From Streptomyces brasiliensis (GTDB lineage Bacteria > Actinomycetota > Actinomycetes > Streptomycetales > Streptomycetaceae), in NCBI RefSeq assembly GCF_014647875.1, contig NZ_BMQA01000009.1, forward strand, positions 1-64,000: 64,000 nt of DNA, in the 5' to 3' direction. Shown piece after piece: positions 14,063-20,670 of this stretch (positions within the stretch are counted from its first letter, which is position 1; each line of letters starts with the position of its first letter). The notes beneath the pieces were generated by a model. It did no database searches, was not told the DNA's origin, and was given only the letters and a program-made list of their open reading frames with translations. Position numbers and translations under genes: made by a program.

Positions 14063-14072
14063 CCTGAGACAC

Positions 14073-14110
14073 CTCCGCTCCGCCCGGTAGCACTGCCGGG
14101 CGGAGCGGAG
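14073..14110. terminator. Hairpin terminator after sigma/PASTA operon
   Basis: A perfect 15-bp stem, CTCCGCTCCGCCCGG paired with its complement at 14096-14110, with an 8-base loop. It begins 10 bases after the PASTA gene stop. There is no clear T-run, which is common in streptomycete terminators. Confidence 0.7.
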
Positions 14111-14242
14111 TCGCGGGCGAGCCCGGGGCCGCGCACCGGGATCGATGCGCACGTGGGTGGCTCGGCCGGTGGCTCGAGGGCCTCGCCGTACCTAGCGAGG
14201 AACGTCTCATGCCCGACCCGGTCGTACTCCGCAATTGCTTGG

Positions 14243-14261
14243 AGGATCCCCGCGCGCGCGT
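14243..14261 (+). repeat. 19-bp direct repeat, copy 1
   Basis: AGGATCCCCGCGCGCGTGA occurs here and again, identically, at 14978-14996, 735 bp downstream. In the second copy it follows a partial tRNA-Tyr-like sequence. The two copies bracket the complete att-like scar at 14391 and suggest duplication or recombination at this locus. Confidence 0.7.
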
Positions 14262-14390
14262 GAAAGCCGCTGAGGCGGGGACTGATCGATCAAGCCGTCA
14301 TACCCTCCAGAGAGCCCTGTGGGGCAAGGGCGGGGCGAAAGCAGTGGTGTCCACACGTAAGCGCTAGTCACGGCGTATTACGCGCGCGGT

Positions 14391-14441
14391 CTGTAAATCT
14401 GCCGGCTCAGCCTTCCCAGGTTCGAATCCTGGCGCCGCCAC
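14391..14441 (+). repeat. tRNA-Tyr 3'-half (attachment-site scar 1)
   Basis: From CTGTAAATCTGCC (anticodon loop with GTA and 3' anticodon stem), through the variable arm, a perfect T arm (CCAGG-TTCGAAT-CCTGG) and the acceptor strand CGCCGCCA, this is the 3' half of a tRNA-Tyr(GTA). Upstream bases do not provide a D arm or the matching GGCGGCG acceptor strand, so it is not a working tRNA. Homology beginning at the anticodon loop and reaching the 3' end is the pattern left by integrases that use tRNA genes. SLP1 of S. coelicolor is known to use a tRNA-Tyr gene. Confidence 0.8.
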
Positions 14442-14448
14442 GTTGAGG

Positions 14449-14493
14449 GAGACCCCCTCTGACCAGGTTATTTGTCTGGTCAGAGGGGGTCTC
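14449..14493 (+). terminator. Terminator following tRNA-Tyr scar 1
   Basis: An 18-bp perfect stem, GAGACCCCCTCTGACCAG with its complement at 14476-14493, and a 9-base loop. It directly follows the tRNA 3' half, as a native tRNA terminator would. A related GACCCCC hairpin follows the second tRNA-Tyr scar. Confidence 0.8.
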
Positions 14494-14855
14494 TCGTTGG
14501 CTCTCCCTGTTCGATGCTCCCAATCGGTGATCCACAGGCGGAGCTTGCGTGCGGCCTCGGGGATCGTGATGAACACCTCGTGCCTCATGCCGGGTCAGGT
14601 TCTCCGCCAGCTCGCGGCGCCGCTTCTGTACCTCGTTCGTGGTGACCCCGAAGACAGGTCCACGTCGACTTCCACGCCGCATTCGGCGATGCGGATCGGG
14701 CCGAGAGTGGAGGCGCCTGCCTCGCCCATCTCCTTGATGGCGCCTCGCAGCGCGGGCACCCCCAGGTCACGCAGTGCCTTGACCGCGATGGGCTCGCCCT
14801 CGCTGGAGCGAAGGTCGTCGGGGAGCGCCCGCACCTTGTTGACGACTGAGGCGTG
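14480..14855 (-). pseudogene. Unrecognised degraded gene
   Basis: On the minus strand a frame with coding-like composition reads EGEPIAVKALRDLGVPALRG and EMGEAGASTLGPIRI (14660-14834). It then continues in other frames as VQKRRRELAENLTRH and EVFITIPEAARKLRLWITDW (14480-14650). At least two frame changes are needed to join the pieces. I do not recognise the family. It lies in the att-scar region and is probably decayed cargo of an integrated element. Confidence 0.35.
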
Positions 14856-14960
14856 GCAACGCGCTAGGGACGCAGACGCTGTTCCTCCAGGCGTCCCCTG
14901 ACAGCGTCAAGTTCAAGGGAACCCGCTGGTAACGGAGAGCGAACGGAGCCCGATGCACAT

Positions 14961-14996
14961 CTGCCGGCTCAGCCCTCAGGATCCCCGCGCGCGTGA
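14961..14996 (+). repeat. Partial tRNA-Tyr-like segment plus 19-bp repeat copy 2
   Basis: CTGCCGGCTCAGCC at 14961-14974 repeats the anticodon-stem and variable-arm part of the tRNA-Tyr scar, then diverges into the 19-bp repeat (14978-14996) also present at 14243. It looks like a recombination joint between the two repeat families. Bases 14856-14960 and 14997-15265 otherwise show no gene that I can support. Confidence 0.55.
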
Positions 14997-15265
14997 TCTC
15001 GGAAGGGGCCATGAGCGACACCGTAGATCAGGGCACTGACAACGAGGCCGTGCTCTGGTCCCGCAGGCGTCCTCCCAACCAAGGCCGGAAGACGGAGAAT
15101 CGCAGGCTCAGGCGGGGCCACCGTGCCCGGCAGGCGTGGTCGCGGATGAAAGTGACCCTCCACCAGGACGGTGAGCTGCGCCCCGGCGGATCTGCGCGAC
15201 GGAGGTGTCAGGAATAGCCTGGAATTCCCTTCGCCGCGCGGGACGCGAAACAGGGAGATAAAGCC

Positions 15266-17643: not shown

Positions 17644-18300
17644 TCAGTTCCCCGCCACCGACTTCACCGCCACCGACACCGGCGTCGAACCGCCGATCAG
17701 CTCCAGCGTCAGACCGGTCGTCGCCGAGCTGTCCACCAGTTCCGTGAGCACGGCGGCCACGTCCTCGCGCGGGACCGAGCCACGACCCGTGTGGGCTTCC
17801 AGGCGTACGAGGCCGGTGCCGGGGTCGTTCGTCAGGGAGCCGGGGCGCAGGATCGTCCAGTCCAGGGCGTCCAGGCCGCTGACGTACGCGTCGGCCTCGC
17901 CCTTGGCACGCAGGTACACGTCGAAGACGTCGTCTCCCTTGTGCGCGGGATCCGCGCCCATCGAGGAGACGACCACGAAACGGCGTACGCCGGCGCGTAC
18001 GGCCGCGTCCGCGAACAGCACCGCCGCGCCCTTGTCCACGGTGTCCTTGCGGGCCGCGCCACTGCCCGGGCCGGCGCCCGCCGCGAACACCGCCGCGTCC
18101 GCGCCCTGCAGATACGCCGCCACCTCCTCCACCGAGGCCGACTCAAGGTCGAGCAGGACCGGTTCGGCACCGGCCTCCCGTAGATCGTCGCCCTGTTCGG
18201 CCTTGCGGATGATCCCCGCGACCTCGTCCCCGCGCGCGGAGAGCAGCCGCTCCAGCCGCAGCGCGATCTGACCATGACCACCAGCGATGACAATGCGCAT
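17644..18300 (-). CDS. NAD(P)-binding Rossmann-fold oxidoreductase
   Basis: A 218-residue atypical short-chain dehydrogenase-like protein of the NAD(P)H-binding (YwnB/NmrA-like) kind. The N-terminal dinucleotide motif is VIAGGHGQIALRLERLL. Central strands contain VFAAGAGPGSG and RRFVVVSSMGAD, and the usual catalytic YxxxK is replaced by YLRAKGEAD, which keeps Tyr and Lys. The DWTILRPGSLTNDPGTG segment is typical of this family. Substrate unknown. It reads away from a 540-bp stretch with unusual GCGCAC repeats. Confidence 0.85.
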   Translation of the reverse strand: MRIVIAGGHGQIALRLERLLSARGDEVAGIIRKAEQGDDLREAGAEPVLLDLESASVEEVAAYLQGADAAVFAAGAGPGSGAARKDTVDKGAAVLFADAAVRAGVRRFVVVSSMGADPAHKGDDVFDVYLRAKGEADAYVSGLDALDWTILRPGSLTNDPGTGLVRLEAHTGRGSVPREDVAAVLTELVDSSATTGLTLELIGGSTPVSVAVKSVAGN

Positions 18301-18837
18301 GTCTCCGACCGTACGCCCGAAGGACCGCCGTCGCCGTACGGCTTGGGAGTGGCCGCGGAGGTTCGACCAGGGAGTGGTGTTTCAGCGGCGCTCGAACGCG
18401 GTTGCGCGCCCCAGGCGTACGCTCCGGGAGCGGCTTTCGTGACTCCGCGGGCGCGCACGGCAGGCGCAAGCGCGCACGCCCAGCGCGCACCACCCTCCGC
18501 GCGCACTTCGCCCCGCGTGCGCACCACATGCACGCGCCCGGCGTGCGACCCCCCCGGCGCACGAGTCAGGCGCGCCTACCGGGGCGCACGCGCCCCTCAC
18601 CGCACCACGAGACGCGCACTCGGTGCGTGGCGCGCACGCCGCCAACCACACCACGCGGCGCGCACCCCACGGCGCACCAGCCGAGGCTGCACACCCACGG
18701 TGCACAGCGCACTCCACAGCGCACACGCCACGGCATGTACTCCACGGCTCGCAAGCCCCAGGAAGACGCCCCCTCGCGCGCCGCTCCGCACCCGCCTCCC
18801 CCCTGTCTCCCGCCCGCGCCCGACCCCCTCACACCCC
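18301..18837. repeat. Intergenic region dense in GCGCAC hexamers
   Basis: No gene is convincing in any frame. Between about 18444 and 18733 I count at least 13 GCGCAC hexamers on the plus strand, irregularly spaced at roughly 10-40 bases, many as GCGCGCAC. By composition alone well under one would be expected. The stretch is C-rich with few T residues. It lies between the start of the oxidoreductase gene and the stop of the amidohydrolase gene. Confidence 0.6.
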
Positions 18838-20106
18838 CTAGGACAACTCCTTACGTCCCTGCCGCGGCAACCCCAGCTCCGCCGTCGCTGCCGATTTGCA
18901 GTACTCCCGTACCGCGCTCGTCCGGGCCACGATCCGCCCCCGGTGGACCACGACCCGGCTGTACGCGAGGGACAGCGCGCCCGCCAGGTGGTCGCCGCGT
19001 ACGGCGAGGAGTTCGGCGGGGAAGCCGGCCTCCACGCGTACTTCGGGGAGGCCCAGCGCCGCTCGGGCCGCCGTGCTCACCGCGCCGTACGCGTCCTCGG
19101 GGCGCAGGCCGTGGCGGGAGGCCAGCAGGTAGGCGGCCTCGAGAGGGTCGCCGCGGCCGACCGGGTTGGAGACGTCCCGCAGCGCACCGCTTCCAGCCGC
19201 GACGCGGACGCCGGCCGCCCGCAGCAGCCGTACCGGAGCCGTGCCCCGCCGGTCCGCGCACCCGCAGCCGCCCTGGGGCAGGCACACCACCGTCACGCCG
19301 GCCGCCGCGAGCTGGTCGGCGACGCGTGAAGCCGCGTCCGTACGGAGGCGGGCCAGGCCGGCGCACGGGCCGAGGGTCACGCCGGGGCGCAGGCCGCCCG
19401 CCATCGCGGCGAGCCGGGACAGCCGGGCCGGATCGGTGGCGTCCGTGTGCAGGTCGACGGGACACCCGTGCTCGGAGGCCACCTCCAGGACCGCCTCCAC
19501 ATAGCCCGTGGGATCCGGGTCCAGGTCGGGACAGCCACCCACCACCGAGGCGCCCATCTTCACCGCGTCCCGCAGCATCGCGAGGCCGTCGGCCCCGGCA
19601 ACGCCGGTCAGCACCCGCGGCATCGCCACCGTCGTCAGCTCGGCGAGCTCGCGCAGCGACCGCCGTGCCCGCAGTACGGCGGACAGCGCGCTCAGCCCCT
19701 GGACGTCGCCCACGCGCACGTGCGCGCGCAGTGCGGTGGTGCCGTGCCCGAGTTGCAGCAGGGCGGCCTCCGTCGCGCGGCGCTGGACGTCCTCGGGGTC
19801 GTACGAGACCGGTCCCTCGCTCGCGGCGGAGAGGGCGGTGTCGGCGTGGGCGTGCGGTTCGGCCGGGGCAGGCAGGAGCAGATAGCCGGTGAGGTCCACG
19901 CGTGTGCCGCCGCAACGGGACGGGCCCGGTGCCAGGCTGCCGGCGGTGCCGACCGCCTCGATGCGCGCGCCAGCGAGCCGTACGTCCACGATCCGTCCGT
20001 CGGTCAGCCGGGCCCCGCACAGCAGGAGGGCGGCCGCGTCCGACTGCCCCGAGGAACCCGGGGGGTTCGACGACGGAGGGGGCGGCTGCGGCTGGCTGTC
20101 GGGCAT
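18838..20106 (-). CDS. Amidohydrolase, cytosine-deaminase-like
   Basis: A 422-residue metal-dependent hydrolase. After a disordered Pro/Gln/Ser-rich N-terminus it has the composite amidohydrolase plan: GARLTDGRIVDVRLAGARI, then LPAPAEPHAHADTAL (metal-binding HxH), GHGTTALRAHVRV, VDLHTDATD, a late AGSGALRDVSNPVGRGD segment and a C-terminal beta-sandwich with VVVHRGRIVA. The nearest recognisable enzymes are cytosine deaminase and related deaminases. The catalytic Asp is shifted or atypical, so the substrate is open. ATG 20104-20106 was preferred over an upstream start that would add 45 low-complexity residues. Confidence 0.75.
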   Translation of the reverse strand: MPDSQPQPPPPSSNPPGSSGQSDAAALLLCGARLTDGRIVDVRLAGARIEAVGTAGSLAPGPSRCGGTRVDLTGYLLLPAPAEPHAHADTALSAASEGPVSYDPEDVQRRATEAALLQLGHGTTALRAHVRVGDVQGLSALSAVLRARRSLRELAELTTVAMPRVLTGVAGADGLAMLRDAVKMGASVVGGCPDLDPDPTGYVEAVLEVASEHGCPVDLHTDATDPARLSRLAAMAGGLRPGVTLGPCAGLARLRTDAASRVADQLAAAGVTVVCLPQGGCGCADRRGTAPVRLLRAAGVRVAAGSGALRDVSNPVGRGDPLEAAYLLASRHGLRPEDAYGAVSTAARAALGLPEVRVEAGFPAELLAVRGDHLAGALSLAYSRVVVHRGRIVARTSAVREYCKSAATAELGLPRQGRKELS

Positions 20107-20389
20107 CGCGCTCCAGGGGATCGGGGGTCCGGCGGGCCGCGGGGGGGAGGGAGGGCTCGGGGACCGTGCACGGGGACGCAAGATCACGCAGAGTGAGTCG
20201 AGCCTAGGGTGGCCGGACACGTGCGTCGCGGAGGAGCGCAATAGTCGTACCGGCGTGGTCCCGCCCGGTGGTGAGGCGTGCGGGAGGGGCCCGCGGGGCT
20301 GCCGGGGACGGGCGCGGAACGAGCCCGGACGGGCGGTGCGAAACGGATTTGGGTGAACGGCGGCCGAGCGTGTAATGTCTTCATCGCTC

Positions 20390-20462
20390 GCCCCAATAGC
20401 TCAGTCGGCAGAGCGTCTCCATGGTAAGGAGAAGGTCAACGGTTCGATTCCGTTTTGGGGCT
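20390..20462 (+). tRNA. tRNA-Thr (GGT)
   Basis: A complete 73-nt cloverleaf: acceptor GCCCCAA/TTGGGGC with discriminator T, D arm AGCTCAGTCGGCAGAGC, anticodon stem-loop TCTCC-ATGGTAA-GGAGA (anticodon GGT), and T loop TTCGATT. CCA is not encoded. It lies 45 bases upstream of tRNA-Met and rpmG, probably one transcript. Confidence 0.95.
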
Positions 20463-20507
20463 CTGGTGTGAGAGGTACCCGCCGCGAGGCGGGACCGATC
20501 TCATCAA

Positions 20508-20580
20508 AGCGGTGTAGCTCAGTCGGTAGAGCAAGCGGCTCATAATCGCTGTGTCACCGGTTCAAGTCCGGTCACCGCTA
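20508..20580 (+). tRNA. tRNA-Met (CAT)
   Basis: A complete 73-nt cloverleaf: acceptor AGCGGTG/CACCGCT with discriminator A, anticodon stem-loop AGCGG-CTCATAA-TCGCT (anticodon CAT), T arm ACCGG-TTCAAGT-CCGGT. The fully paired acceptor marks it as elongator rather than initiator. A lysidine-modified tRNA-Ile with the same CAT is not excluded by eye but is less likely. Confidence 0.9.
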
Positions 20581-20670
20581 CTGACAGTAGCCGATTGTGG
20601 GGTCGGTCCTTCGATCGGCTACTCTTTCTTGCGTTGAACAAGTCTATCCGTTCGTCTTAGGAGCACTCAC

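Follow-up and report, generated by a model that had tools for sequence, protein, structure and literature searches.

A cluster of GCGCAC hexamers upstream of an oxidoreductase gene in Streptomyces brasiliensis, probably a lineage-specific and partly decayed repeat expansion

The 13 GCGCAC hexamers clustered between an amidohydrolase gene and an oxidoreductase gene in Streptomyces brasiliensis are best explained, with a probability of about 0.82, as a short-repeat expansion, specific to the lineage and partly decayed, in a little-constrained spacer, which is a known kind of feature. Replication slippage or unequal local duplication would have put down short direct copies on one strand, and these would then have decayed via substitutions and small indels, giving a repeated hexamer with irregular spacings. 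The spacer would tolerate this expansion because the putative oxidoreductase promoter occupies a block of its own by the gene. For the cluster we infer both how the copies arose and that they have no function. The features discussed are located in Table 1, where positions refer to the window, that is the whole stretch of 64,000 nucleotides that was analysed; GTGCGC stands for GCGCAC read on the transcribed strand.

Table 1. Location of the genes, the spacer and its repeated and conserved parts in the window
Feature	Position	Strand	Remark
NAD(P)-binding oxidoreductase	17644..18300	-	Pfam NAD_binding_10
Non-coding spacer between two minus-strand genes, 537 bp	18301..18837	-	holds the GCGCAC cluster
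Conserved block beside oxidoreductase start	18301..18345	-	alignment of 69 spacers
GCGCAC cluster, 13 copies and one reversed	18453..18724	+	irregular spacings, 12-38 bp
Degenerate 16-bp tandem array, 3.2 copies, 70% matches	18475..18527	+	
12-bp tandem duplication within cluster, 92% identity	18703..18726	+	
Amidohydrolase, longest ORF, possibly starting at 20106	18838..20241	-	Pfam Amidohydro_3

Composition of the cluster and its rarity in the genome

All 13 forward-strand copies fall within 18440-18740, where the original prediction had counted at least that many on one strand, and they are joined by a single copy on the minus strand (18517-18522), which makes the orientation 13:1 direct. 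The spacings are, in order, 12, 35, 12, 28, 18, 30, 27, 38, 18, 16, 13 and 19 bp. Comparison of the six bases on each side of the 13 copies revealed no base shared by more than nine of them at any position, and neither a helical phase at 10, 10.5 or 11 bp (p about 0.59, 0.76 and 0.34) nor a common codon frame could be found for the copies. Partial duplications of 12-19 bp are internal to the cluster, and three 19-bp copies with 79% identity remain visible.

When the core was shuffled 5,000 times with its dinucleotides kept, the hexamer occurred 3.1 times on average and nine times at most, so that 13 was never reached. As the hexamer had been chosen post hoc the maximum over any hexamer was tested as well; none of 3,000 core shuffles reached 13, the top value being 12, seen twice. 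Chance is excluded as the source of the pile-up, and the density is, as had been predicted, far above expectation. When the whole 10.7-Mb genome was searched for three GCGCAC separated by gaps of 4-34 bp, 22 forward and five reverse matches (27) were obtained, of which 11 of the forward ones are the window cluster while the remaining 16 are all single; a second cluster like that of the window was not revealed by this pattern. None of the 15,760 stretches of 301 bp sampled from 400 kb of the same genome held more than four copies on one strand, so the equal density elsewhere that could have spoken against the original prediction was not found in this sample. Nucleoid organisation, one of the uses suggested at the outset, would call for a signal spread over the genome, and the finding of just one such cluster speaks against this. 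In the 400 kb and the window together a count of 13 for one hexamer within 301 bp was reached at a single further place, by GCCGCC and outside any called gap. Of the 164 gaps in this sample that measure 130 bp or more, window spacer included, 4 reach p 0.01 with their most frequent hexamer.

The claim that no frame is protein-like was confirmed with codon statistics trained on the same genome, by which the six frames of the spacer score from -42.5 to -77.3 and the oxidoreductase gene +83.5. The ORFs of 114, 351 and 88 aa within the spacer score -49.0, -64.0 and -29.2 and have no Pfam matches. A protein-coding spacer was ruled out on the negative scores in six frames together with the lack of Pfam matches in the three ORFs.

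The homologous spacer in Streptomyces

The amidohydrolase gene was found upstream of the oxidoreductase gene in 77 of the best 80 named loci listed in a search with the oxidoreductase, the three others lying near contig ends (upstream sequence of 659, 175 and 261 bp), and the pair is also present at 27 of 29 loci from further genomes; some organisms may be represented in both sets, and two rows are identical to each other. Streptomyces keeps the two genes together, but the spacer between them is changeable in length and content, with 105 spacers (window included) ranging from 2 to 1,431 bp with a median of 145. An exceptional length variability was considered and rejected, its absolute spread being similar to that of the neighbouring divergent spacer (interquartile range 139 bp for this spacer and 99 bp for the neighbouring one, 33 loci). 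At seven loci (L044, L055, L057, L061, L063, L081 and L089) the homologous spacer measures 1.26-1.43 kb and holds an extra reading frame on the opposite strand with a gene-like codon composition.

GTGCGC is missing in both orientations from 72 of the 105 spacers, window included, and at least five copies occur in four, namely the window (13+1), L027 (8+5), L042 (4+3) and L028 (4+1). In a tree of both genes, built with a quick method, the window belongs to a well supported clade of 13 rows, and the other 12 rows have 0-3 copies each; the similar clusters at homologous loci that the original prediction had named as a check were thus not encountered in this clade, and their absence from close relatives is the outcome that this prediction had named as refuting it. 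The nearest relative compared, L152, shares 88% DNA identity over both genes. On the tree the state of two or more copies requires at least 11 changes, i.e. it is recurrent, a point against the favoured reading. BLAST of the window spacer against the other spacers gave 54 matches. Of these, 51 start at the promoter-proximal end, two fall in L027 and one, 18 bp long, in L024; no alignable cluster was found in the spacers of the clade relatives. A DNA search with the whole spacer in 101 genomes recovered its full length in its own genome only; in the 25 other genomes with matches these are short (at most 77 bp), several at the promoter end.

The nearest copy begins 153 bp before the start codon of the oxidoreductase, in agreement with the predicted position upstream of this gene. 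When 69 spacers are aligned, they resemble each other over roughly the final 45 bp ahead of this start, where CGGCG and GGCGTACGGTCG hardly vary, and conservation of the spacer is limited to this end, away from the cluster. On the minus strand TACGGT (18308-18313) ends 7 nt before the ATG, the conserved CGGCG being located about 18 bp further upstream. For Streptomyces avermitilis a -10 motif TANNNT and a share of 22.2% leaderless mRNAs are given in PMC8780764, and TACGGT matches this motif. Judged from its sequence, the 45-bp block is probably a leaderless promoter, the distance of only 7 nt to the ATG making a leaderless oxidoreductase transcript likely. The regulatory use once proposed for the cluster is disfavoured by its absence from the relatives examined and by the position of the conserved promoter-like part in this separate block. 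At the other side, upstream of the amidohydrolase, genes for tRNA-Thr and tRNA-Met are found at 20390-20581 in the window.

Word tests were performed on spacers of 130-999 bp with the last 60 bases removed, leaving out the seven spacers above 1,200 bp with the extra reading frame. The most frequent hexamer of a spacer is in excess at p 0.01 in eight of 52 spacers, a different word in each, and at p 0.05 in 12 of 52. In L152, the nearest row, the word is CGTTCG with seven copies (p 0.004), and other spacers have an excess of GCGGTG, CGGAAG, CGCCGG, TCGGCC, GTGCGG or GCGCGC. In L153, belonging to the clade of the window, GGCTTC occurs six times with a non-significant clumping test (p 0.19), and a 15-bp tandem is common to the spacers of L039 and L041. 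The spacer upstream of the oxidoreductase in L097 is filled by seven copies of a 109-bp tandem repeat. The repeat content at the same site thus differs between lineages, as in decayed slippage repeats, and the evidence favours the suggestion of the original prediction that a repeat was expanded by slippage, or else local duplication, the relatives differing from the window in their repeated words.

A kept site and local copying can be told apart by comparing how often the word is present with how often it is multiplied. The 51 other spacers contain 49 copies of GTGCGC against 20.3 expected, a number reached by none of 300 shuffles, and the excess persists when L027 is omitted (41 against 18.1) or four rows are dropped (32 against 16.9). 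The number of spacers containing the word is 19 of 51 against 15.6 expected, which is about chance, and an excess in multiplicity and not in presence points to local copying and not to a kept site. In 272 other gaps at the same loci GTGCGC is not enriched (68 copies, 83.8 expected), so that the site or its composition favours the word, which counts against full neutrality. Clumping of any word was found in 9 of 38 spacers at this site and in 21 of 272 other gaps (Fisher p 0.005), the control gaps being longer (median 411 bp, compared with 144.5 bp here), while tandem repeats called by TRF are not commoner (19 of 38 and 102 of 272, p 0.16). The amidohydrolase-oxidoreductase spacer may be somewhat prone to repeat expansion.

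Related repeats and alternative readings

Cryptically simple sequence and decayed tandem repeats are produced by slippage. The cluster resembles them in that one word is over-used locally with no strict tandem order and in that partial tandem units are still visible; the local word excess beyond composition, by which decayed slippage is recognised, is present. Close direct repeats of the class 6n6g24, defined in a prokaryotic survey (PMC4060949) as a 6-mer found at least six times with no gap longer than 24 nt, are a further likeness, and in Table 2 of that survey the seventh column, Actinobacteria by the order of the legend, holds 2.00, the top of its row. Six copies at 18557-18677 fit the class as it is written there, and all 13 qualify with gaps up to 36. 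Elsewhere the rule finds three places in the 400-kb control, and among the homologous spacers 4 of 80 with the window included. In 33 of 40 other genomes the triple GCGCAC pattern is more frequent than its reversed control (908 against 466 overall). Twelve GCGCAC places in other Streptomyces, picked for their clustered look, vary from strict tandems (9, 17, 18, 25, 30 and 34 bp) to irregular sets at unrelated loci, six of them outside called genes. The largest of these groups has seven copies in 301 bp, and the window cluster, with its 13 copies in 272 bp, exceeds every other GCGCAC group encountered. A literature search found no paper on GTGCGC in Streptomyces or on slippage of intergenic simple repeats in Streptomyces.

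Iterons, which are elements of replication origins, consist of a short word repeated directly many times in non-coding DNA, and the window cluster is like them in this respect. An iteron- or operator-like array, in which a protein recognising GTGCGC controls the oxidoreductase or organises DNA, is nevertheless an unlikely reading. The many copies of one orientation upstream of a gene and the genus-wide excess of GTGCGC in this spacer, absent from neighbouring gaps, argue for it, but the 13 copies have neither shared flanks nor phasing, the other rows of the clade have few copies or none, presence across spacers is not above chance and the nearest relative uses a different word. The conserved sites at the homologous locus that mark an operator array were not found, and the cluster differs from iterons in having no longer conserved unit, no regular spacing and no conservation; among the genes examined no replication gene adjoins it, the neighbours being the oxidoreductase and the amidohydrolase. 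A more orderly array, of CTGCGTCA, stands in another gap of the same genome. The iteron-like protein binding considered in the original prediction is thereby disfavoured.

Somewhat less probable still is a structural element that would soak up supercoiling between the two co-directional genes by adopting Z-DNA. Alternating purine-pyrimidine runs of at least eight cover 114 of the 301 bases of the core, a content reached by 25 of 2,000 shuffles; when 1,274 stretches of 301 bp were sampled from the window, one had as much, presumably the cluster stretch. The stretch is Z-DNA-prone, which counts against full neutrality, but its longest run is 13 bases, the measure is partly a consequence of GCGCAC itself and the word is not conserved in relatives. 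That the 3' region of the amidohydrolase holds a transcribed RNA element or a terminator appears very improbable. The transcribed strand is G-rich in 38 of 39 spacers and the absolute fold is strong (-192 kcal/mol), yet it is no better than that of shuffled sequences (z -0.94; 14 of 100 as good), a search of the spacer in Rfam gave no match up to E 5 and no site resembling an intrinsic terminator was found in the spacer. Hardly any weight can be given to the idea that the stretch is what remains of a mobile element or coding gene, the sole pointer to which is the local repeat excess: there is no match among plasmids or phages and no full-length match in 100 other Streptomyces genomes, and the codon scores are negative in six frames.

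The CTGCGTCA array is situated in a gap at 17390-17866 of L133 (G000:C7:57390-57866), and has eight copies and three reversed ones, partly 9-10 bp apart. By eye this gap is flanked by a replication primase/helicase-like gene and by excisionase- and tyrosine integrase-like genes, and the array is a better candidate for the iterons of an integrative element than the GCGCAC cluster. Another gap, located in the window at 14063-15265, contains CGCGCG eight times and a stretch that by eye resembles the 3' end of a tRNA, although ARAGORN calls no tRNA there; it is possibly the remnant of an attachment site.

Implications for Streptomyces spacers

Beyond the single expansion in the window, the spacer could be a nursery of repeats in which different short words are amplified repeatedly by lineage with a preference for GTGCGC, a tentative idea that we consider rather improbable. 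The G-rich transcribed strand and the Z-prone sequence would perhaps destabilise replication there. If this were true, effects on readthrough or on the putative leaderless oxidoreductase promoter would be possible, and the site would offer a handle on the origin of short repeats in Streptomyces spacers. The cluster in addition provides a worked example of how one test tells a striking oligonucleotide cluster in high-GC DNA from a binding array, namely whether the word is present above chance over the homologous spacers or merely multiplied, and here it is multiplied.
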